Shown in pieces: positions 2,469 through 33,481 of a stretch of DNA of 33,540 bases. The stretch is from a virus. The notes beneath the pieces were generated by a model. The model made no database searches and was not told the DNA's origin. It was given only the letters and a program-made list of their open reading frames with translations. The stretch's first letter is position 1; every line of letters begins with the position of its first letter. The position numbers were made by a program, and so were the translations under genes. The stretch is taken from IMG/VR virus record IMGVR_UViG_3300036861_000219, positions 1-33,540 of that record. One strand, given 5' to 3'.

Positions 2469-2737
2469 TGAATCACCTCGGCAGGCTTTCGCCCACTTAT
2501 CCGCGCCCGCCGCTCGCCGGTGTCCGCACCCGCGCCGAGCTCGACGACGAGATCGCCAGCGAGAACCGCGCCATCTCCCGAATCGAGCAGACCATCGACG
2601 AGTACGTCCCGCCGACGTGTGAGTTCTGCACGGCCCCGGCGATCGACGAGTGCTCCCTCTGTGAGCGGCCGATGTGTGAGGACGACTCGGTCGTCGAGAG
2701 CGTCTGCATCGAGTGCGACGCCGAGGTGCTGTCGTGA
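2468..2737 (+). CDS. Zinc-ribbon-like protein with a helical N-terminal region
   Basis: This 89-residue protein has a helical region rich in Glu and Arg (about residues 18-45), then a C-terminal block with CEFC, CSLC, C and CIEC pairs (about residues 52-84), which looks like a two-zinc cross-brace or B-box-type fold. ATG at 2468 shares its A with the stop of the previous gene. It is the second zinc protein in a row. Function unknown. Confidence 0.6.
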   Translation: MNHLGRLSPTYPRPPLAGVRTRAELDDEIASENRAISRIEQTIDEYVPPTCEFCTAPAIDECSLCERPMCEDDSVVESVCIECDAEVLS

Positions 2738-3411
2738 GAGTCCACCGACGGGTGGATCAGGGCATCGGGCATGTTAGCCCCGGAGGCCCCGGTGTAGGAC
2801 CCGAGGGTCGGCGGACGGCCAACGCGACCCTCGGGCAGGCACCGCGGGCAGCGGTTGTCGCCCTCGTCATCGCGGGGCTGCTCGCCACGGCGAGCCCGGC
2901 GACCGCGACCACATGGAGTCCCGGCGAGTCCGGTGTCTCACCCGCGTACACGGTGCCGATCCACGTCGTCGACACGGTGATCGGGACGCTGCGGCTGGAG
3001 AACCGGCCGCTATGGCGACAGGCGCGGAACGAGGCGCTCGCCGAATGGGGCATCCCGTTCATGGTGACGCGGCTGTCGGAGTCGTCGCTGCCCTACACCT
3101 TCGACGACAACATCGGCACGGTCGGCTATGACGGGATGCTGATCCCCGACGCGATCCTGCTGGTCCGTAACCGGATGTCCTACTCGACCGAGCAGGCCGG
3201 GTACTCGGCCACCGTCAACGGCGGGATCGCGGTGTTCACGCCCTGGGCTCCGTGGTGGAAGCCGAACGCTGCGATGTCCGGTGTCATCGCCCATGAGGTC
3301 GGACACGCCCTGGGCTTCTATCACGGCGGGACCGGCGTCATGGCCGGAGCCTTCCGAGTGAACGACGAGGAGCGCGCGCTCGCCCAGACCTACTACGGGG
3401 TCGCGCCGTGA
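2734..3411 (+). CDS. Exported metzincin-type zinc metallopeptidase
   Basis: The product has 225 residues. After a 38-residue basic leader comes a hydrophobic stretch (residues 39-52, AAVVALVIAGLLAT) and an Ala-rich cleavage region ending near ATA57, a plausible Sec signal. The mature part carries HEVGHALGFYH at 187-197, the full metzincin zinc site HExxHxxGxxH (His187, Glu188, His191, Gly194, His197), followed by a Met-turn candidate Met203 in GVM. This fits a matrixin-like secreted peptidase cleaving an extracellular or cell-wall protein. GTG at 2734 overlaps the previous stop and has a GAGG ribosome site; GTG at 2752 is possible. An exported peptidase is an unusual cargo for a phage early operon. 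Its substrate is unknown. Confidence 0.75.
   Translation: MRVHRRVDQGIGHVSPGGPGVGPEGRRTANATLGQAPRAAVVALVIAGLLATASPATATTWSPGESGVSPAYTVPIHVVDTVIGTLRLENRPLWRQARNEALAEWGIPFMVTRLSESSLPYTFDDNIGTVGYDGMLIPDAILLVRNRMSYSTEQAGYSATVNGGIAVFTPWAPWWKPNAAMSGVIAHEVGHALGFYHGGTGVMAGAFRVNDEERALAQTYYGVAP
2800..2835. other. Perfect 11-bp hairpin inside the metallopeptidase leader
   Basis: CCCGAGGGTCG at 2800-2810 pairs perfectly with 2825-2835 across a 14-nt loop. It lies within the part of the gene that encodes the long basic leader, before the signal sequence. No T run follows, so it is a weak terminator candidate. It could attenuate translation or transcription into the peptidase. Confidence 0.6.
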
Positions 3412-6336: not shown

Positions 6337-7300
6337 GCCCGCCGCCATCGAGCGCCGCGACGATGCCCTGTCGCAGATCGTCGGAACCGGTGACACGCGT
6401 GCCATGCTCGAACAGGTCGAGCGGAACGTCCGCGATGTCATCGATATCGCCCGCGACCGCGGGTTTGTGACGCGGTTCAACAACCGCGACTTCTTCGGCT
6501 TCCCGGCCTGGAGCTTGTTGGCTTTGACGTACGGCCTCGTACCGTTCATCGAGTGGACGAAGCCCGTCGATAACGGTTGGGAGGCAAGGGCTATCGTCCG
6601 CACCCGCGAGGGCGACGTCGTGTCGTCGGCCGAGGCGATGTGTACGCGGAAGGAACAACCGCGCCGCAACGCTGACGACCACACGCTACGGGCGATGGCG
6701 CAGACGCGGGCCATGCGGAACGCGCTGCGGTCCTGTCTCGGTGCCGCCCTGGTCATGGCGGGCTTCGACTTCGCTGACCCGGAGGGACCGGCGACGAACG
6801 AGCAGGTCGGCCTCCTGCACCAGCTCGAGCGCGAGATCGGGATGTCGCACGACGAGGGTCACGCGACCGCGAACGTCGATTCGTACAAGCAACTGAACCG
6901 CGAGGACGCGTCCACGCTGATCAACCGCTGGACCGCGATACGCGATGAACTTCGGGGCGGGGGAGCGGAGACGCCGCCACCCTCCAACGAGTCCGGCCAA
7001 CGCGGCCCCCACCCCGATTCTTCCGACGCCGTTTCAGACTCTCTTTCCGGCGTCGGGATCGAGGAGTCCCCTGGCGAGGGTGAAGGGGAAGCACCCGAGC
7101 CGGGGGATTCCTCACCAGCATCGGACGAGGCATGGAGCCGCGCGCCGAAGGACATGACGCTATCAGGCGCGGTGAAGCTGGCGGGCAAGCTGCGGCAGGA
7201 GAACCGGATCACCGGCAACGTGCCGCGGCGGAAGGCTGAGTTCACCGGGGAGCAGCTCGCGCGGGTCTCGGCGGCGTGGCGGGACGGGGAAAGAGGATGA
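6329..7300 (+). CDS. Single-strand annealing protein candidate (RecT/ERF-like role)
   Basis: The product has 323 residues. The first 150 form a compact alpha/beta domain with EARAIVRTREGDVVSSAEAM (86-104) and a helix LRAMAQTRAMRNALRSCLG (120-138), then an acidic turn. This 'MAQTRA...ALR..LG' signature recurs in phage proteins that travel with RecB-like nucleases and are thought to anneal ssDNA. Residues 155-205 resemble the small helical C-terminal domain of such proteins. A Pro/Ser/Glu linker follows, then a second short helical domain (268-323). Pairing with the nuclease at 4116 supports recombination or replication repair. Its exact superfamily cannot be decided without a profile search. 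Confidence 0.5.
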   Translation: MPEPAAIERRDDALSQIVGTGDTRAMLEQVERNVRDVIDIARDRGFVTRFNNRDFFGFPAWSLLALTYGLVPFIEWTKPVDNGWEARAIVRTREGDVVSSAEAMCTRKEQPRRNADDHTLRAMAQTRAMRNALRSCLGAALVMAGFDFADPEGPATNEQVGLLHQLEREIGMSHDEGHATANVDSYKQLNREDASTLINRWTAIRDELRGGGAETPPPSNESGQRGPHPDSSDAVSDSLSGVGIEESPGEGEGEAPEPGDSSPASDEAWSRAPKDMTLSGAVKLAGKLRQENRITGNVPRRKAEFTGEQLARVSAAWRDGERG

Positions 7301-7611
7301 GCCGCGGGGTCGGGTCGTACTGGTGCGAGGCGTGCCGTCGGACCTTCGGTGGGCGTGAAGCGTTCCGACAGGCCCACTTCGGCCGGTGCCTACCAGCGCG
7401 GGAGCTGCGCAAGCGCGGGTTCCGTCAGCGAGACGATGGTACGTGGACCCGGAGCTACGATCCCCGACTCCCGCGTCAGCTCCGTCTGTTCCGGGTCGGT
7501 CGACCCCATAGGAAGCCCGAGAAAAGTGCGGGGGTCGCCGTCAAGCCATATTGGGTCCCGATTCGTCTCACTACCCAAGAGTCTGATTCCGGCACGCAGG
7601 AGGCCGCATGA
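7297..7611 (+). CDS. C2HC zinc-finger protein
   Basis: This 104-residue protein has one clear zinc finger at its N-terminus: Cys10, Cys13, His27 and Cys31 in a classic finger arrangement with Phe17 and Phe23 as core residues. The rest is basic, with many Arg, suggesting nucleic acid binding. ATG at 7297 overlaps the previous stop and follows AAAGAGG. Function unknown; a DNA-binding accessory factor is plausible. Confidence 0.6.
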   Translation: MSRGVGSYWCEACRRTFGGREAFRQAHFGRCLPARELRKRGFRQRDDGTWTRSYDPRLPRQLRLFRVGRPHRKPEKSAGVAVKPYWVPIRLTTQESDSGTQEAA

Positions 7612-7814
7612 TCCCCTGCGCGCTCTGCGGCAAGCCCGTCGCCCCCAGGGCCGAGGACACGTTCCTCGAGCAGGCCGGTTGGTCGCACAACCGCACCGCC
7701 GGGGGCTCGAACCAACTCAGCCTGCGACGTGAGACCGGGCGCTATGCCCACGGTGCGTGCATCCGCCTGGCGGTGCGCGGCGTAGACCCGCGCGATCAGG
7801 GGGTGCTGATATGA
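7608..7814 (+). CDS. Small CxxC protein
   Basis: This 68-residue protein has Cys4 and Cys7 (CALC), and His and Cys in YAHGACIRLAV near residues 46-54. Together these could hold one zinc ion. ATGA overlap with the previous gene; the replication gene starts at 7811, overlapping its end. No family recognised. Confidence 0.55.
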   Translation: MIPCALCGKPVAPRAEDTFLEQAGWSHNRTAGGSNQLSLRRETGRYAHGACIRLAVRGVDPRDQGVLI

Positions 7815-8578
7815 GCGACCGCATCGACCTCGGCGGTGAACCGTGGCAGGCGATCCCCCGCGCGATCCTGCGCGACGCACGACTGAGCCCGAAGGCCAAG
7901 GGCGGACTCGTGACGCTGCTGTCGCACGAGGAGGGTTGGGTGCGCTCGGCCATCGCCATCCTGCAACGTGAGAACGACTGTGGCCGCGACATGGCCCAGG
8001 CCATCATGCGCGAGCTGCGAGCGATCGGATACGCCGAGCTCGTGCGCGAACGAGACCTCGAGGGGCGCGTGTCGTCGCACTACATCGTCCGCGCGAAATC
8101 CGTAGGTTCAGCCGCCGAAACTGGCGGGTCTCCGGTAGCCGGGAAACCCGGCGGTCGGGAAACCCGGTCGCCGGAAACCCCGGCTGCAGTAGTAGAACCC
8201 CAAGACGTAGAACCCCAAGACGAAGAACCCCAAGGTCAAACCCTTGCGCTCGCTACGCGAACGCGACCCCGCGACGAGGTCTTTGAGGCGCTCTGCGAGG
8301 TCGGAGGCCACGGCTGGGACGGTCTGAACACCGTCGAGCGTGGACGGCTGAACAAGGCGCGAGGGCTCGCCCGCGAGAGCGGCGCCACTCCGGAGATGAT
8401 CCGCCACGCCGCCGACCGATGGCCCGCAGTGATGGGCGACGCGACGATGACGGCGCTCGGTGTGATGAGCAACTTCCACCGGCTGTTGTCCGGCCCGGCG
8501 AGGACGAGGCGACAAACCGCTGAGATGCCGCTCGATCGGATGGCCCGTGAGTTGTTGGAGGGGAACGCCGATGGTTAG
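7811..8578 (+). CDS. Replication initiation protein, winged-helix N-terminus
   Basis: The product has 255 residues. Residues 8-90 match the winged-helix start of phage initiators (PWQAIPRAILRDARLSPKAK, then VRSAIAILQRENDCGRDMAQ, then a wing ending in SSHYIV). A low-complexity linker (about 98-150), rich in Gly, Pro and Glu, is encoded by repeated DNA that looks like an origin. The C-terminal helical domain (about 152-255) ends MARELLEGNADG and would recruit the helicase loader or helicase. This follows lambda O and DnaD-type organisation, where the origin lies inside the initiator gene. The neighbour at 8571 is a loader candidate, giving an initiator-loader pair. Confidence 0.65.
   Translation: MSDRIDLGGEPWQAIPRAILRDARLSPKAKGGLVTLLSHEEGWVRSAIAILQRENDCGRDMAQAIMRELRAIGYAELVRERDLEGRVSSHYIVRAKSVGSAAETGGSPVAGKPGGRETRSPETPAAVVEPQDVEPQDEEPQGQTLALATRTRPRDEVFEALCEVGGHGWDGLNTVERGRLNKARGLARESGATPEMIRHAADRWPAVMGDATMTALGVMSNFHRLLSGPARTRRQTAEMPLDRMARELLEGNADG
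8139..8186. repeat. Three 16-bp iterons, candidate replication origin
   Basis: CCGGGAAACCCGG (8139), TCGGGAAACCCGG (8155) and CCGGAAACCCCGG (8171) recur with exactly 16-bp spacing. Each is nearly palindromic around AAA. A looser relative, with CCGCC and GGCGG arms around GAAACT, lies at 8112-8127. They sit in the linker of the replication protein gene, as in lambda O. Initiator binding sites of an origin are the natural reading. Confidence 0.6.
8192..8236. repeat. Three 15-bp tandem direct repeats
   Basis: GTAGAACCCCAAGAC occurs twice in perfect tandem (8192, 8207), followed by a diverged copy at 8222. They encode VEPQD, VEPQD, EEPQG. The run lies 5 bp after the 16-bp iterons and is locally less GC-rich than its surroundings, so it may be part of the origin. 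Slippage in a coding linker is the alternative. Confidence 0.7.
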
Positions 8579-9065
8579 CGATCAGGCTCAAGCTCTCGCG
8601 CTGCGCCTGCTGGCGAGCTACCCCGGTGTGCCCGCTACCAAGATGGCCGTCGCTGCGCTTGCCGAATCGCTCGATCGCATGGGGCTGGACATCGCCGAGG
8701 CGGTCGTCGAACGAGCCCGGACTGAGCTCGTGCGCGTGCCCTCAGTGGCCCAGCTCTACGAAGTGGCGCGCGACATCCGTGTCGAGGCCGCCGAACAGGA
8801 TCGCCCCGCGCTGCCTTCGGCCGAGGAGTTCGTCTCCGCGATGCCCGACGAGGTGCGCGAGAAGTGGCACGCGACGCAGGCGAAGTGGTCTGGTGATCTC
8901 GACCGTGATGTCGTGGCCGAGGACGCCGAGTGGCAGCGCGTGAAGACCGCGACGCTCGCGCTGCTACGGATGCACGGCACCTGCCTCGGCACCGATAAGC
9001 CGCCGGTGCAGGTCGACGGGATGCTCGTCTGCCCGGTCTGCCGCGTGGAGGTGGCGCGGACGTGA
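8571..9065 (+). CDS. Helicase-loader candidate (G39P-like)
   Basis: This 164-residue protein starts with a helical region (ALALRLLASYPGVPATKMAV, then a helix through LDIAEAVVERARTELVRVPS) resembling the N-terminal domain of SPP1 G39P-type helicase loaders. Those bind the replicative helicase and deliver it to the origin. The C-terminus has Cys residues in GTCLGTD and CPVC (about 142-158), a likely zinc knuckle. It overlaps the initiator gene by 8 nt, matching the usual initiator-loader pairing. The call rests on pattern and context only. Confidence 0.5.
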   Translation: MVSDQAQALALRLLASYPGVPATKMAVAALAESLDRMGLDIAEAVVERARTELVRVPSVAQLYEVARDIRVEAAEQDRPALPSAEEFVSAMPDEVREKWHATQAKWSGDLDRDVVAEDAEWQRVKTATLALLRMHGTCLGTDKPPVQVDGMLVCPVCRVEVART

Positions 9066-9223
9066 AGACCGAGACGACCTGGCGGTGGCTCACGCCGATC
9101 GAGCGCGCGAAGCGCGACGGCCGCATCCGCGAGCTGTACGCGATGGGCTGGACCCGGCAGGAGCTCGCCGACGAGTTCGACCTCACTCGGCAGCGTGTCG
9201 ATCAGATCGTGAGGAAACGATGA
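9062..9223 (+). CDS. Small helix-turn-helix protein
   Basis: This 53-residue protein is basically one HTH: RIRELYAMGWTRQELADEFD followed by the recognition helix LTRQRVDQIVRKR, as in sigma factor region 4 and related resolvase-type domains. It is coupled by GTGA to the loader gene and by ATGA to the RusA gene. Likely a DNA-binding regulator of the early operon or its end. Confidence 0.65.
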   Translation: MKTETTWRWLTPIERAKRDGRIRELYAMGWTRQELADEFDLTRQRVDQIVRKR

Positions 9224-9624
9224 GGTCGCTGGCGTTCCAGGTCTTCGGAGACCCGATCCCCCAGGGATCGAAGCGCGCGTTCGTCGTGAAGAACCGGGCG
9301 GTCGTCGTCGACGACAACAAGTCGACGCTCAGGTCGTGGCGGTCGGCCGTCATCGACGCCGCTCGCGCCGAGCTGAACGGCGAAGGTCCCGAGCTCGGCC
9401 CGGTGCGCATCACGCTCATGTTCTTCCTTCGACGGCCGCAGAGCCCGAAGGCTGGCGTACCGATTGTGAAGCCCGACGTCGACAAGCTGGCGCGTGCAGT
9501 GCTCGACGGCATGACCGACGCCGGGGTGTTCCGTGACGACTCGCAGGTGACGACGCTGACCGCGCGCAAGCGGTACACGACCGAGGCGCCCTGCGTGCGC
9601 GTGTTCGTGGACGGTGACGCGTGA
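9220..9624 (+). CDS. rusA: RusA-family Holliday junction resolvase
   Basis: This 134-residue protein, close to the usual RusA length, has the family motifs. Near the N-terminus GDPIPQGSKRA binds the junction. Then KPDVDKLARAVLDGM gives Asp86, Asp88 and Asp96, and FRDDSQV gives Asp106/Asp107, the metal-binding acids. Lys89 and a late Lys (RKRY) complete the pattern. It cuts four-way junctions from recombination or replication restart and may trim branched DNA before packaging. ATG at 9220 overlaps the HTH gene stop. It fits with the nuclease and annealing proteins upstream. Confidence 0.9.
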   Translation: MRSLAFQVFGDPIPQGSKRAFVVKNRAVVVDDNKSTLRSWRSAVIDAARAELNGEGPELGPVRITLMFFLRRPQSPKAGVPIVKPDVDKLARAVLDGMTDAGVFRDDSQVTTLTARKRYTTEAPCVRVFVDGDA

Positions 9625-9908
9625 ACTTCTCGAAGCGATACGTCGAGGACTTGGAGGCCGAGGTCGAGCGGCTGAAAGCCCTCGCCAAGTCCTATCGGAG
9701 AGATTGGGTAACGGCCGAGGCCGAGGTCGAGCGGCTGCAGGCCATCATCGAGGCCAACGACAACTACGACCAGGATGTCACGGAGCGCGAGGTCGAGCGG
9801 CTGCGGGCGGCGGCGACGGCCGTGTTCATGAACCCACTCGACATCGACGCGATGTTGAAGCTGGGCGAAGTCCTGGGGGAGGTGATGCCCATACACACCG
9901 ATCCGTAG
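9621..9908 (+). CDS. Coiled-coil protein with repeated EAEVERL heptads
   Basis: This 95-residue protein is mainly a coiled coil (about 5-70). EAEVERLKAL, EAEVERLQAI and EREVERLRAA are spaced by 21 and 23 residues and come from near-identical DNA (GAGGTCGAGCGGCTG three times), showing internal duplication. The C-terminal 25 residues (IDAMLKLGEVLGEVMPIHTD) form a separate short helix. GTG at 9621 overlaps the rusA stop. Probably a dimeric small protein of unknown role. Confidence 0.55.
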   Translation: MNFSKRYVEDLEAEVERLKALAKSYRRDWVTAEAEVERLQAIIEANDNYDQDVTEREVERLRAAATAVFMNPLDIDAMLKLGEVLGEVMPIHTDP

Positions 9909-9950
9909 GCCGTGGCGCCGGGAGCGCCCGACGACGACGGAGGTGCAAAC

Positions 9951-10217
9951 GTGCGACAAGCAGTCGTGTACGCGGCCGCCATCACCGCGACCTTGGCAGG
10001 GCTGGTGATGGGGCCACCGGAGGCACTCGCAAGCGCCCGGTTCGCCGATTCTCGGGCAACAGCGTCGGGCACGCAACAGCAGCAGATCAGGGAGCGAACG
10101 TGCAGGTTCCAGTGGGTCGATCGGGGAACATGGACCGCCCGCGAGGAGCGTCGAACCCTGGCGTGCGTCGTGGATCGGTTCGGCCCCGTCGACGGCGGGA
10201 TACCCAAGGTCGAGTAG
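9951..10217 (+). CDS. Exported lysozyme-like protein, N-terminal part ending at an in-frame TAG
   Basis: The product has 88 residues. GTG at 9951 is chosen because GGAGGT precedes it by seven bases. A signal sequence (AVVYAAAITATLAGLVMG) ends at an ALA-S type cleavage site near residue 29. The mature part has two Cys (TCRFQW and LACVVDR) and stops at TAG (10215-10217) right after GIPKVE. The same frame then continues without break for 74 codons as a lysozyme-like catalytic domain (see the next entry). Alone this product would lack the catalytic Glu and is unlikely to be an enzyme. Confidence 0.6.
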   Translation: MRQAVVYAAAITATLAGLVMGPPEALASARFADSRATASGTQQQQIRERTCRFQWVDRGTWTAREERRTLACVVDRFGPVDGGIPKVE

Positions 10218-10442
10218 GTCGGGGCGTGCGAGTCCGGGTGGAACCGGCTCGCGTCCAACGGCGGCTCATACCTCGGCCTGTTCCAGCACGCGGCGTCGGA
10301 TTGGCCGAGCCGCGTGGCATGGGCCATGCCGGACGGCTGGCGCGTCGGCCCCTGGTCGAGCTGGCGAAACAGCAGAGCGCAGATCGTCGTCACGGTGCGG
10401 ATGGTTCACGCCTCCGGCTGGGGTGCCTGGTCGTGCGCCTGA
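10218..10442 (+). pseudogene. Transglycosylase/lysozyme-like catalytic domain downstream of the amber codon
   Basis: In frame with 9951-10217, these 74 codons encode VGACESGWNRLASNGGSYLG, then LFQH, with a Trp-rich end (GWRVGPWSSW, SGWGAWSCA) and a TGA stop. ACESGWN with a catalytic Glu, followed by GSYLGLFQ, is the hallmark of the SLT/Rpf-type transglycosylase fold cutting peptidoglycan. No usable in-frame start lies before the motif, so translation needs TAG readthrough. Joined, the two halves make a normal 163-residue secreted enzyme with one extra residue, often Tyr in relatives, at the TAG. Explanations are a nonsense mutation, programmed readthrough, a suppressor-carrying host or a base error. 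TAG ends many intact genes here, so genome-wide recoding is excluded. Confidence 0.75.
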
Positions 10443-10455
10443 CAGGGAGGAACGG

Positions 10456-10728
10456 ATGAAACGAGCTTTGGCAACGCTGCTCATCGGACTGACCATGATG
10501 GTCGGCACGATGGCCGCACCGGCGCAGGCGCTCGATCGGGTCCGGTGCGAGATTCCGGGCAACTACCGGGTCGTCTGCTACAACACCACGCCGTATCGGG
10601 TCCACGTGAGGCTGCGCATCTTCACGACCAACGGGCTGTACGTGCGCTACTTCACGATCTTCAACTACCGCAAGGTCGTCTACAGCCCGGCCTACATCAA
10701 TCGGATTGCCTGGCGCTGGTGGTTCTAG
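10456..10728 (+). CDS. Small secreted cationic aromatic protein
   Basis: This 90-residue protein has a clear Sec signal (MKRALATLLIGLTMMVGTMA, cleavage after AQA at residue 25). The mature 65 residues hold ten Arg, one Lys and only one Asp and one Glu, and about 15 aromatic residues, ending WRWWF. Two Cys (31 and 41) could form a disulfide. Beta-strand-like alternation suggests a small beta protein or a membrane-active peptide. ATG at 10456 follows AGGGAGG. It sits 13 nt after the amber-split lysozyme, also exported, so the two may act together at the cell surface. No family recognised. Confidence 0.65.
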   Translation: MKRALATLLIGLTMMVGTMAAPAQALDRVRCEIPGNYRVVCYNTTPYRVHVRLRIFTTNGLYVRYFTIFNYRKVVYSPAYINRIAWRWWF

Positions 10729-10736
10729 GCGTGGCG

Positions 10737-11207
10737 ATGACGAACGTGGAGCGGTCCCGCGGTGACGGGGGAGGTGATCGACGGCGGGACCGCTCCCGAC
10801 CCTCGGCCGAGCCGGGCGGTGCCCTACCGCAGCCGCGCGTCGTCGCCCGCGAGGTCCGCGAAATCAGGGTGCGCGTCGAGGTCTTCGCCGCTATCTACGG
10901 CGTGGAGCACGAGGCGCTGCTCAGCCTCGGCGGGTCGGACGTTCACGTCCAGACAGGCCCGAGCGACTCGACGGTTTCGACCCTGCTCGACGGTGAGAAC
11001 GAGGCCGCCCGGCGCCGTTGCGCGCGAGCCGTGGCGCACCTACGATCGGCGTCGACGCACGTCGAGATGGCGCTCAAGGCGTTCGGGCCACTCGTCGAGC
11101 AGCCGCGCGATCGGTCGCCAGATGCCGTCGTCGATCAGTCGACGTTTGATCGTGCGGTGAACCGACGACGGCACCGCGAACGGGAGGAGGAGTTGCGACG
11201 TGGGTGA
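10737..11207 (+). CDS. Hypothetical helical protein
   Basis: The product is about 156 residues. An Arg/Gly-rich disordered N-terminus (to about residue 40) is followed by beta and alpha segments (REIRVRVEVFAAIYGVEHEA) and two long helices (CARAVAHLRSASTHVEMALK and a basic C-terminus RRRHREREEELRRG). GTG at 10731 or 10746 are possible alternative starts, as none has a strong ribosome site. No family recognised. Confidence 0.5.
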   Translation: MTNVERSRGDGGGDRRRDRSRPSAEPGGALPQPRVVAREVREIRVRVEVFAAIYGVEHEALLSLGGSDVHVQTGPSDSTVSTLLDGENEAARRRCARAVAHLRSASTHVEMALKAFGPLVEQPRDRSPDAVVDQSTFDRAVNRRRHREREEELRRG

Positions 11208-11394
11208 GATGAGCAAGGGTGTCAGCGTGGCGACCGTCGAGGCCGCCGATGCGCTGGCCGTCACGGTGCTGTCGCTCATGGATGCGAAGGCGACCGGCGA
11301 ACGGTCGGTGCAGGACATCATGGCGGAGGCAATCGAGCAGGCTGACCGATACCGTCGCAGCCGGATGGCCGACGTGCCGGTGCGACGTGGGTGA
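11200..11394 (+). CDS. Small helical protein of unknown function
   Basis: The product has 64 residues (or 61 from ATG at 11209), rich in Ala and Met, mostly helical: VATVEAADALAVTVLSLMDA, then QDIMAEAIEQADRYRR. Start overlaps the previous gene by 8 nt. No domain recognised. Confidence 0.5.
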   Translation: MGEMSKGVSVATVEAADALAVTVLSLMDAKATGERSVQDIMAEAIEQADRYRRSRMADVPVRRG

Positions 11395-11677
11395 CCACAC
11401 TCCGGGACCGTGGATGGTGCATCACTACAGCAATGTGTCCTTTCACAGGGATGGAACGTATATCCAGCAGGGCGGGCGGGACGTTGGTCAAATCGTGGGA
11501 TTTGACGAAGCCGATGCCCGCCTCATCGCCGCCGCCCCGGACCTGCTGGCGGCGCTGGAGCGGATTGAAGACCTCGACTGGTCACACGACAGCGCCGAGA
11601 GCGCGATGGTCAAGGTGCAAGTCGAAGCGGCCGCTGCCATCGCAAAGGCCAAGGGTTCGGAGAACGTTGCACCGTAG
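11387..11677 (+). CDS. HTPGPW/ARLIAAAPDLL family phage protein
   Basis: This 96-residue protein has two signatures widespread in tailed phages: HTPGPWMV at the N-terminus (residues 4-11) and EADARLIAAAPDLLAALERI in the middle (about 43-62), a conserved amphipathic helix. The family is common in early regions, but its function is not established. GTG at 11387 gives the start right at the conserved motif. A different frame is also open here over 160 codons, but this frame carries the family motifs. Confidence 0.65.
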   Translation: MGDHTPGPWMVHHYSNVSFHRDGTYIQQGGRDVGQIVGFDEADARLIAAAPDLLAALERIEDLDWSHDSAESAMVKVQVEAAAAIAKAKGSENVAP

Positions 11678-11685
11678 GCTATACT
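11656..11685 (+). promoter_or_regulatory. Promoter candidate for a leaderless zinc-finger gene
   Basis: TATACT at 11680-11685 is a strong -10 box. TTCGGA at 11656-11661 is a poor -35 at 18-bp spacing. Transcription would start about 11692, almost at the GTG at 11694, which has no ribosome site. This resembles the leaderless arrangement at 1613-1650. Confidence 0.45.
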
Positions 11686-11693
11686 GGCGTCCC

Positions 11694-11879
11694 GTGGGGA
11701 CGTGCAAGGTCTGCGGGAAGCCCGCGAAACGTCGCGGCCGGTGCTGGACGTGCTACCAGTTTCGCCGTCGTACCGGGCGTGATCGAACCCCCGCGATGAT
11801 CTTCGCAGCGAACGTCCGAAGGCTCGACGACGAGCTCGAGCGGCGTGCGATGGCTGCGATTCTCGGCATCCAAGCTTGA
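11694..11879 (+). CDS. Small zinc-finger protein
   Basis: This 61-residue protein opens with GTCKVCGKPAKRRGRCWTCY, four Cys as CxxC-x8-CxxC holding one zinc. It is followed by a basic stretch (QFRRRTGRDRT) and a C-terminal helix (LDDELERRAMAAILGI). The finger resembles zinc knuckles that start phage HNH proteins, but no HNH follows, so it may be a regulatory or truncated relative. The GTG lies at the predicted transcript start. Its stop codon lies inside the -35 box of the next promoter. Confidence 0.6.
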   Translation: MGTCKVCGKPAKRRGRCWTCYQFRRRTGRDRTPAMIFAANVRRLDDELERRAMAAILGIQA

Positions 11880-11903
11880 CCTTCAGTCAGATGTGCATAT
11901 AAC
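11876..11903 (+). promoter_or_regulatory. Strong sigma70-type promoter for the 12.0-16.9 kb structural block
   Basis: TTGACC (11876-11881) and TATAAC (11898-11903) with a 16-bp spacer give a start near 11910, in a locally AT-rich stretch. It lies at the end of the early operon and before a run of virion-type genes, so it is a candidate late or delayed promoter. The -35 overlaps the stop codon of the preceding gene. Confidence 0.65.
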
Positions 11904-12041
11904 TTACGGTTGCCGTGGTGTGCCCAACGACCGCCACGTCTCTTTGATCTGATCCTCCGAGCGCATCTCCGCGTGCGTCCCCACGTCTCGCGGTCGTGCG
12001 CTCGGACTCCGTCCCCGTCCCCGAGCAGGAGGAGGTAAGGC
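11904..12041 (+). other. Untranslated leader of about 130 nt
   Basis: No gene is seen here. The leader contains CCTCC at 11954-11958, complementary to the GGAGG ribosome site at 12031-12035, so part of it could pair with and mask that site. Other short GC-rich inverted repeats are present but none is striking. Confidence 0.35.
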
Positions 12042-12488
12042 ATGGCAGGCGCAGCCTTCGCGGCGATCGACTCGACCGCCGGTGCTGCCGCGCCGAAGAC
12101 GCAAATCGGTCTTCTGGCGGCGACCGTTCGAGCACGGGTGCGGGGCCTCCGCATCGGCAACACCGCCGCGACGTCGGCCGGTGGCAACCGGTTCGTCCTG
12201 AACGCGGTCACGACGGCCGGGACGAAGACCGACATCACGGCGGCGAACACCAAGCTCGACCCGAACTCCCCGTCGCCGATCACCGCGGCGTCCTCGACGT
12301 ACACCGCCGAGCCGACCTCGGGCGTCACGACGGAGGACTTCGGGTTCGACCGCGTCGGCACGTACATCCTCTGGTACCCGCCCGGTGCCGAGCCGTTCGT
12401 GACCGGCACCACGCGTCTCGCGTTGCAGAAAACGGTCGGCACCGAGACCGATGTGCTGGCCGGGACGCTGGTCTGGTCGGAGGACTGA
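12042..12488 (+). CDS. Virion-type beta-rich protein of unknown function
   Basis: This 148-residue protein has an N-terminal Ala-rich helix and then beta-strand-rich Thr/Ala sequence (AVTTAGTKTDITAANTKLD, VGTYILWYPPGAEPF). The composition is typical of phage decoration, head or fibre proteins. It starts the block downstream of the promoter at 11876, with an excellent ribosome site (GGAGGAGG, 12028-12035). No family recognised; possibly a decoration or minor structural protein. Confidence 0.5.
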   Translation: MAGAAFAAIDSTAGAAAPKTQIGLLAATVRARVRGLRIGNTAATSAGGNRFVLNAVTTAGTKTDITAANTKLDPNSPSPITAASSTYTAEPTSGVTTEDFGFDRVGTYILWYPPGAEPFVTGTTRLALQKTVGTETDVLAGTLVWSED

Positions 12489-12811
12489 TGCCGAAGACGA
12501 AGGACGAGAAGCTCCTCGAGACGGAGACGCCCGATCAGCAGGTCGACAGGATGGGGAACGCCTGGCAGTCCGTCGGCCAGTATGAGAAGCAGCTCGGCCT
12601 GCCGGTGCATCTCATTGCGATCGACGCCGACGACGACCCCATCCTGGTCAAGATCGAGCGGGACGGGGCGAACGTCATGGGCTACCGGACTGTCTGCGGC
12701 CTCGCGCTCGGCGGCGAGGGATCGACGACACGCGGGAAGCACCGCGGCGAGGGCACGCTCCGCTCGACCGACGATCGTGATGATGCGACCTGTCAGGCGT
12801 GCCTCGAGTGA
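12488..12811 (+). CDS. Hypothetical protein with C-terminal Cys pair
   Basis: The product has 107 residues. The first 30 are charged and helical. A beta-rich segment follows (LPVHLIAIDADDDPILVKIE), then a Gly/Arg/Asp-rich tail with DDATCQACLE at the end. ATG shares its A with the previous stop (TGATG). No family recognised. Confidence 0.5.
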   Translation: MPKTKDEKLLETETPDQQVDRMGNAWQSVGQYEKQLGLPVHLIAIDADDDPILVKIERDGANVMGYRTVCGLALGGEGSTTRGKHRGEGTLRSTDDRDDATCQACLE

Positions 12812-31814: not shown

Positions 31815-32468
31815 GTGGCTGACACCGAGTTCATCACCGCCCGCTATCCCGAGAACGAGATGCCGAAGACGCAGAACCGCAAGGAGATGATGACCCGCGT
31901 CCGCGGCTTCCTCGATGGTCCGGGGAGACTCCGTGAGGCCGGTGGAGACTGGTCTCCTTGGCGAACGGAACCCGAGCTCCTGGATCGGATCGCCACGCGC
32001 ACCGGCCGGATGGGAGTGGGTCCCAAGCTCATCGTTCAGAAGCGCTCGAACCGAGCGCAGCTTTCCATCCGCGAAGTCAAGGCGATCCCCGATCTCGGTG
32101 CCGCCCCGGAGATCGAGAAGATTCACGCCGCGGTCTGGGCCGAGTTCGACGTCCGATCCGGTGGGCTATGGCTCTGCCGATTCATCGACGGTACGCATTC
32201 CGTCTCCAAGCACGGATACCTCAAGGATGACCCGAACGGCTGGAAGGGCGCCGCCGAGGACATCTTTGTCATCAACGGTGGGATGGCCGACCTGGTCAAG
32301 GTGGCCGAGTTCATCGTCAATGGAACCAAGCACGGAGCGTTGGAGGCGGCGACGGTGATCGTGGACCGGCAGATTTGGACCCCATCACAGGGCTGGCATG
32401 CCTACACCGGGGAGCAGCACTTCCATGTTCACGCCGATGTCCTCGGTGGCCATGCCTGCACCCCCTGA
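31815..32468 (+). CDS. Endolysin candidate with an M15-like peptidase C-terminus
   Basis: The product has 217 residues. The C-terminal half has DGTHSVSKHGYLKDD with His128 and His133, GAAEDIFV with Asp149, the conserved RQIWTPSQGWHAYTGEQ, and HFHVHADV with His204 and His206. This IW...GW..Y.G..H..HvHvd pattern is typical of D,D-carboxypeptidase-like phage lysins that cut the peptidoglycan peptide. The N-terminal third is basic and might bind the wall. It opens the exit block, followed by three small membrane proteins. The motif is not an exact M15A match, so a catalytic role is probable but unproven. Confidence 0.55.
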   Translation: MADTEFITARYPENEMPKTQNRKEMMTRVRGFLDGPGRLREAGGDWSPWRTEPELLDRIATRTGRMGVGPKLIVQKRSNRAQLSIREVKAIPDLGAAPEIEKIHAAVWAEFDVRSGGLWLCRFIDGTHSVSKHGYLKDDPNGWKGAAEDIFVINGGMADLVKVAEFIVNGTKHGALEAATVIVDRQIWTPSQGWHAYTGEQHFHVHADVLGGHACTP

Positions 32469-32640
32469 TGGCAACGACCCCACGACGGGCGAGATATGGC
32501 GTGCATTCGTCGACTTCCGGCAGGAGAGCAGGGATCAATACAAGTTCATCCTGCGACTGCTGATCGGAGGAATCGCCGCCTCCGTGATTGGCAACATCGT
32601 TGCCACGCTGACCGCAATCGGAGCGAGGCCGCCGTCATGA
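32452..32640 (+). CDS. Single-pass membrane protein, holin-like
   Basis: The product has 62 residues from ATG at 32452, where the N-terminus reads PAPPDGNDPTTGEIWRAFVD. A helix FRQESRDQYKFIL leads into a membrane segment (about 34-54, LLIGGIAASVIGNIVATLTA). It overlaps the lysin candidate by 17 nt. Upstream ATGs at 32428 and 32437 are possible. A small membrane protein here suits a lysis role. Confidence 0.55.
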   Translation: MPAPPDGNDPTTGEIWRAFVDFRQESRDQYKFILRLLIGGIAASVIGNIVATLTAIGARPPS

Positions 32641-32915
32641 ACACACCCGAGGCTCAGGCCGCCCGGATCAACCGGCTCCGCAACTGGGTAGTGGCGCTCG
32701 TGTTCGTCATCATCCTCGCGGGGTCCATCGGCCCGCTGACGGTCATCACGTATTTCAACCGAGCCTCGGCCGCTCAACAGGTCGACCTCACGTGTCAGGG
32801 CCTCGAGAACCAGGACACGATGCTGCGCGCTTTCCGCACGGCGTTCGAGGAGGGGCTTGGAGTTCCCTGGAGATTCCCGATACCGGAGGTGCCGCCCGAG
32901 TGCGATGGTTCCTGA
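32637..32915 (+). CDS. Membrane protein, possible spanin-like or holin partner
   Basis: This 92-residue protein has one membrane segment at about 16-40 (NWVVALVFVIILAGSIGPLT) with a short basic cytoplasmic start and an outside part holding Cys residues (LTCQGLENQD, VPPECDGS). ATGA overlap with the preceding gene. In the exit block, likely a lysis accessory protein. No family recognised. Confidence 0.5.
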   Translation: MNTPEAQAARINRLRNWVVALVFVIILAGSIGPLTVITYFNRASAAQQVDLTCQGLENQDTMLRAFRTAFEEGLGVPWRFPIPEVPPECDGS

Positions 32916-33481
32916 TCTCCCTCATCCTGGCGACGATCGCGTCGCTCGCCTTCGTTGCCGCTGGTGGGGAGTCCGCGAGGGCACCATCACCTTGCACTTG
33001 GACCGGCACTCCCGAGCGCGACGTGAAGACCGGGACCGCGGGCGCGAACGTCCTGTGCGCCGAGCCGGGCAACGACTTCATCCACGGTGCCGCGGGCAAC
33101 GACGTCCTCCGGGCTGGCAAGGGCCGCGACGTGGCGGTGGGCGGCGGCGGCCGCGACGTGCTGCGCGGTGGTCGTGGACGCGACCGGCTGTTCGCCGTGG
33201 ACGACCAGGGCGGGGAACGCATCATCGGCGGGCGTGGCAACGACCAGTGTTTCGTCGATCCCGGCGACGTCGTGTTCGGATGTGAGCAGACCTTTCGATC
33301 GAGTGAGCCCGAGATGGCGAGCGCGCTCGGTCAGTCGCTCCGTTCCGTGATGGAGATCGTCGAGGAGGTCACGGTCTCCCCGACCGTGGCGCCACCGCCG
33401 GTCATCGTCACCTCGACCATCACCCTGCCGCCCTGCAATCAGGGACCACCCGAACCACCACCGTTCTGTGGAGGAGGTTAG
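32900..33481 (+). CDS. Exported RTX-like glycine-rich protein
   Basis: The product has 193 residues. GTG at 32900 follows GGAGGT. The signal peptide VRWFLISLILATIASLAFVA is cleaved near residue 26. The mature part carries RTX/hemolysin-type repeats, GNDFIHGAAGNDVLRAGKGR, then DVLRGGRGRDRLF and IIGGRGND (about 54-116), which in this family bind calcium in a beta roll. Basic residues replace several acidic ones, so calcium binding is uncertain. The end is Pro-rich with Cys (LPPCNQGPPEPPPFCGGG). It lies in the exit block before the two-helix membrane gene. A role at the outer cell surface or in lysis is possible. Confidence 0.7.
   Translation: MRWFLISLILATIASLAFVAAGGESARAPSPCTWTGTPERDVKTGTAGANVLCAEPGNDFIHGAAGNDVLRAGKGRDVAVGGGGRDVLRGGRGRDRLFAVDDQGGERIIGGRGNDQCFVDPGDVVFGCEQTFRSSEPEMASALGQSLRSVMEIVEEVTVSPTVAPPPVIVTSTITLPPCNQGPPEPPPFCGGG

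Follow-up and report, generated by a model that had tools for sequence, protein, structure and literature searches.

A small cationic, aromatic protein with a predicted export signal in the early operon of a temperate soil siphophage with a probable actinobacterial host

Exported early phage proteins are poorly catalogued beyond a few model phages, and the original prediction for the locus described here started from the view that the products of early phage genes usually act inside the cytoplasm. A known exception is Spackle (gp61.3) of phage T4, an early, exported protein with a mature part of 75 residues and a disulphide, which exerts superinfection exclusion outside the cytoplasm (PMC7677548). 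Two further systems are close enough to be compared: the Ltp-type exclusion lipoproteins of Streptococcus thermophilus phages, which are exported surface products of temperate phages of a Gram-positive host (PMC3952083), and the Mtz-Tim pair of Listeria, a secreted metzincin and a TIMP-like protein of phage origin (PMC8235301). The small protein studied here (Table 1) resembles Spackle in its early phage origin, its export, its small mature part and, if its two cysteines pair, its disulphide. On the other hand, Spackle is alpha-helical, resides in a Gram-negative periplasm and has a known target, and neither homology to it (tblastn against phages up to E 10, PDB sequences) nor its fold (a low-confidence model with strands) was found for the small protein. 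The Ltp-type proteins are likewise exported products of temperate phages of Gram-positive bacteria, but they are lipoproteins encoded in a lysogeny module, whereas the small protein has no lipobox and lies in a lytic operon. With Mtz-Tim the likeness lies in phage-derived proteins that are exported to act on the wall, and in a metzincin that this operon has as well; Tim, however, is a lipoprotein whose gene forms a pair with that of the metzincin, and here the metzincin lies ~7 kb away from the small gene.

The window, i.e. the whole stretch of DNA that was analysed, is a complete IMG/VR virus record of 33,540 bases. Leftward integrase (342-1175) and HTH-domain (1245-2045) frames face a long rightward gene series. 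An HTH regulator is its first gene, exonuclease, replication-initiation-like protein and RusA genes belong to it, and the genes for terminase, prohead protease, major head protein and tape measure lie further downstream; holin-like genes are found late (32637-32915 and 72-266). The best terminase relatives are from phages of Actinobacteria, at 33-36% identity, and those with names are mostly Actinobacteria phages. Given this gene content and layout and these terminase relatives, the virus is a temperate siphophage, probably of an actinobacterial host. Two related records, G001 (33,899 bases) and G002 (34,860 bases), can be aligned with it for the greater part of their sequence, although the order is permuted. 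The early-operon location originally assigned to the small gene is borne out by its replication and recombination company (RusA, the replication-initiation-like protein and the exonuclease). This lytic operon runs rightward and the integrase/repressor side leftward, an arrangement that gives no hint of the small gene being expressed in a lysogen. No tRNA genes are present in the 33,540-base window. A promoter scan of positions 7000-12600, which is a weak guide for actinobacterial promoters, returned no promoter, and genome scans for a host or prophage gave no relative of the small protein or of the neighbouring lysozyme.

Table 1 Features of the early operon considered in this work.
Feature	Position	Strand	Remarks
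Metzincin-like protease frame with signal peptide and HEVGHALGFYHG	2713..3411	+	Start codon not fixed
RusA-like resolvase	9220..9624	+	Early operon marker
Rpf-like secreted lysozyme/transglycosylase frame, interrupted	9951..10442	+	Translatable from own start: 9951-10217 alone (88 aa)
In-frame TAG	10215..10217	+	Ahead of catalytic Glu; CAG (Gln) in three nearest relatives
13-base leader GACAGGGAGGAAC containing Shine-Dalgarno	10441-10453	+	Once each in this record, G001, G002
Shine-Dalgarno GGGAGG of small gene	10445..10450	+	Strong; ATG at 10456
Small exported cationic, aromatic protein, 90 aa (signal peptide ~1-25, mature 65 aa, two Cys)	10456..10728	+	Frame, export rule script, homologue
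Predicted signal peptide MKRALATLLIGLTMMVGTMAAPAQA	10456..10530	+	n/h/c and (-3,-1) rule script; conservation in relative
Conserved gene closing variable slot behind lysozyme	10737..11207	+	Also in G001, G002

The composition first reported for the mature part of the small protein proved exact: 10 Arg, 1 Lys, two acidic residues, 15 F/W/Y and a C-terminal WRWWF, to which two Cys can be added. Its net charge is +9, its aromatic residues number 15 against 5.0 expected, and it is the most aromatic 65-residue window among all proteins predicted in the record. Secretion, also claimed at the outset, is upheld by a signal-peptide-like N-terminus with an AQA site, as called in a script by n/h/c-region and (-3,-1) rules and not by SignalP. 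The predicted cleavage (AQA-LDRVRC) makes the first Cys the sixth residue of the mature protein, and no lipobox Cys is present at that site. Structure prediction with AlphaFold did yield a model, but one of low confidence (pLDDT 46) and too poor to interpret.

A single relative of the small protein was found, an 88-residue product encoded at 6436-6702 of locus L003 in the soil phage record G002. The two mature parts have identical numbers of Arg (10/10), Lys (1/1), acidic residues (2/2) and Cys (2/2), the same net charge of +9, and 15 and 13 aromatics, respectively; the aromatic C-terminus is retained. Since a homologue in a related phage keeps the same composition, the small gene is not a chance frame and, by this comparison, is a real coding gene. 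The signal peptides are 79% identical and the mature parts 43%, with dN values of 0.17 and 0.69 and dN/dS ratios, from these two sequences, of 0.37 and 0.87. Such a pattern points to a real exported protein that is either changing fast or weakly constrained, two sequences being too few to separate these. A passenger cassette of little or no function, evolving almost neutrally, would account for the mature-part ratio of 0.87 and for the patchy presence of the gene; we regard this as unlikely, as the frame, start, strong ribosome-binding site, signal peptide, Cys, charge and C-terminal aromatics have all been kept at 43% mature identity. Further relatives were absent from IMG/VR, 50,697 phage records, plasmids, one GTDB scan, Pfam, PHROGs and the PDB, where the IMG/VR and GTDB scans were pattern-based and reach close relatives only. 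A tblastn search against phages up to E 10 gave just unrelated short matches, rejected for E-values above 1 and for lying mostly within tail sheath or terminase genes; a match in G004 was discarded as the antisense of a DNA polymerase I-like frame. The Pfam scan up to E 10 produced an insignificant match to DUF5119 alone. No homologue of known function emerged from these searches.

The small gene had been seen as one of two adjacent exported products, the other being the lysozyme directly upstream. This second product does not stand in the present record. The lysozyme frame extends from a GTG at 9951 to a TGA at 10440-10442 and is continuous only through the in-frame TAG, at a codon that is open in all eight relatives (CAG in G001, G002 and G003, other sense codons in the five more distant ones). 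The TAG precedes the catalytic ESG motif, and a restart of translation behind it was rejected, the next in-frame start (10314) being already past the catalytic Glu. Amber readthrough or recoding is unlikely because TAG ends both flanking genes and other predicted genes, no tRNA is encoded, and this is the sole premature stop, a genome-wide comparison with G001 and G002 having revealed no second one in the record; programmed readthrough at this one site is conceivable. As sequenced, this lysozyme copy is a dead 88-residue stub. The part behind the TAG is conserved (dN/dS 0.135 against G001) and carries few window-specific changes, five silent and two replacing, so that the TAG is either a recent nonsense mutation or an error in the consensus.

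The lysozyme family itself is best described as Rpf-like, at sub-threshold profile scores. The window frame falls short of the PF06737 gathering cut-off (17.7 bits vs 27), its intact relatives match this family weakly (best E 0.0066), and RpfC is matched weakly both by NCBIfam and by a profile against PDB sequences. In the latter, positions 76-151 align to RpfC (2n5z/4ow1) at marginal E-values of 0.04-0.07 with CESG aligned, and CES is invariant in the eight relatives. Foldseek gave no match for the lysozyme, and its AlphaFold model was too poor to interpret. What the family shares with the Rpf/PF06737 domain is thus the CESG with the predicted catalytic Glu and an alignment to RpfC (2n5z) over the full domain; it differs in its scores, an unusual N-terminal part and, in this record, the interrupted frame. 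The signal-peptide part of the lysozyme is near-identical between L003 and L004 and different in the window and L002, despite the window enzyme domain being nearer to L003, which suggests that the signal-peptide segment has been exchanged.

Occurrence across records also weakens the notion of a working exported pair. The lysozyme is present in eight other records, and the small gene accompanies it in G002 alone, so that the search for the same gene pair returned both genes once, yet not side by side, a further small gene separating them there. The closest relative, G001, has the lysozyme without the small gene, which is thus found in two of nine records. With seven of eight lysozyme records lacking it, the small protein is not a dedicated partner of the lysozyme, which is a separate, more widely held accessory enzyme, broken in this record. 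The broken lysozyme serves as a caution that adjacency alone is no proof of a functional pair. These data bear on the idea that the small protein is an inhibitor or immunity protein of the Spackle kind, which would guard the infected cell either against the adjacent lysozyme or against the tail lysin that arriving phages bring with them. The small protein does resemble T4 Spackle (PMC7677548) in its size and export, its likely disulphide, its place in an early operon and the lysozyme beside it, but this role is improbable: most lysozyme records do without the small gene, the small gene is still open here where the lysozyme is broken, neither the tape measure nor the next tail gene has a muralytic domain in Pfam, and the strands of the weak model do not match an alpha-helical Spackle.

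The small gene occupies a variable slot between the lysozyme and a conserved downstream gene. The slot holds the small gene in the window, another small gene plus this one in G002, and other genes in G001 and L004. The shared leader always precedes one of the two genes that come next behind the lysozyme, and the genes that follow it differ, which fits an exchange of slot genes by recombination at this leader. By eye, the slot in L002 and L004 contains a conserved LKRVQ(V/I)HG... protein; the next frame is Ntn-hydrolase-like in L002 but RuvC-like in L004.

The metzincin-like frame, which has sub-threshold matches to Astacin and Matrixin, is 78% identical in G001 and has a diverged copy elsewhere in G002. 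It brings the export-directed frames of the operon to three: protease, lysozyme and cationic protein. In Listeria, the phage-derived pair with its secreted metzincin makes cells more sensitive to phage lysins (PMC8235301), so that an envelope theme for the operon is plausible by analogy. The small protein might accordingly be a lysis helper, an exported cationic protein that loosens the wall or membrane alongside the metzincin and the Rpf-like lysozyme and aids holin/endolysin lysis in a tough soil actinobacterium. Three envelope-directed frames in one operon, the Listeria precedent and the conserved cationic aromatic composition argue for such a role; it is nevertheless doubtful, in that the small gene sits among early genes, away from the late holin-like genes, the metzincin of G001 occurs without it, and the lysozyme is broken in this record.

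We rank superinfection exclusion ahead of assistance in lysis. Our preferred reading, to which we give a probability of roughly 0.35, is an accessory, lytic-phase exported protein that binds the envelope and most likely acts in superinfection exclusion. On this view the temperate siphophage would carry the small gene as an accessory cassette and express it together with the other genes of the early lytic operon; the product of the small gene would be exported by Sec, cleaved after AQA and probably closed by one disulphide, and would settle in or on the anionic cell envelope via its Arg/aromatic surface. The envelope of the infected cell would thereby be altered for the remainder of the infection, most likely blocking entry or wall penetration by competing phages. 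Exclusion is consistent with a signal peptide that has changed far less than the mature part, with a composition that is kept, and with a variable slot and presence in two of nine records. The setting agrees as well: early operon genes, an integrase and an HTH frame that are encoded on the other strand, and terminase relatives in Actinobacteria phages. Exported early exclusion proteins are, moreover, a known kind (T4 Spackle, PMC7677548). Against exclusion stand the lack of a homologue of known function and of a confident structure (pLDDT 46), and a dN/dS near 0.9 that, coming from two sequences, could also mean weak constraint. Exclusion genes of temperate phages are often expressed in the prophage state, whereas this gene sits in the lytic operon. 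A surface function, as originally proposed, is the natural reading of export, and the evidence does not single out exclusion over another envelope effect. Attack would imply a secreted, bacteriocin-like antimicrobial against competing cells, of the general lactococcin 972 type. A 25-residue Sec signal and a cationic, aromatic mature part of 65 residues would suit such a protein, and lactococcin 972 is of similar size, but a Pfam scan up to E 10 gave no match to a bacteriocin family, the lactococcin 972 model included, no immunity or transporter gene was recognised alongside, and a product made from a lytic operon would benefit a cell that is about to die, making this the least probable of the roles considered here. 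A broader but rather unlikely reading is a new family of small exported Arg/aromatic proteins that re-coat the envelope of the infected cell early in the lytic growth of soil actinobacteriophages, exchanged cassette-like downstream of an exported muralytic enzyme, with rapid diversification against rival phages. If it does exclude other phages or soften the wall, the cationic protein would offer a small and convenient means of exploring how the actinobacterial envelope is reshaped by phages.

Two other genes deserve mention. Between the tail genes and the holin-like proteins, positions 31815-32468 (+) encode a 217-residue protein without a family match, whose conserved His/Asp positions (SVSKHG...AEDIFV...HFHVHAD) recall M15 peptidases, making it a candidate late endolysin. 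Near the right end, an RTX calcium-binding repeat protein (PF00353, E 1.2e-17) is encoded at 33023-33481 (+), with relatives in G002 and G003.
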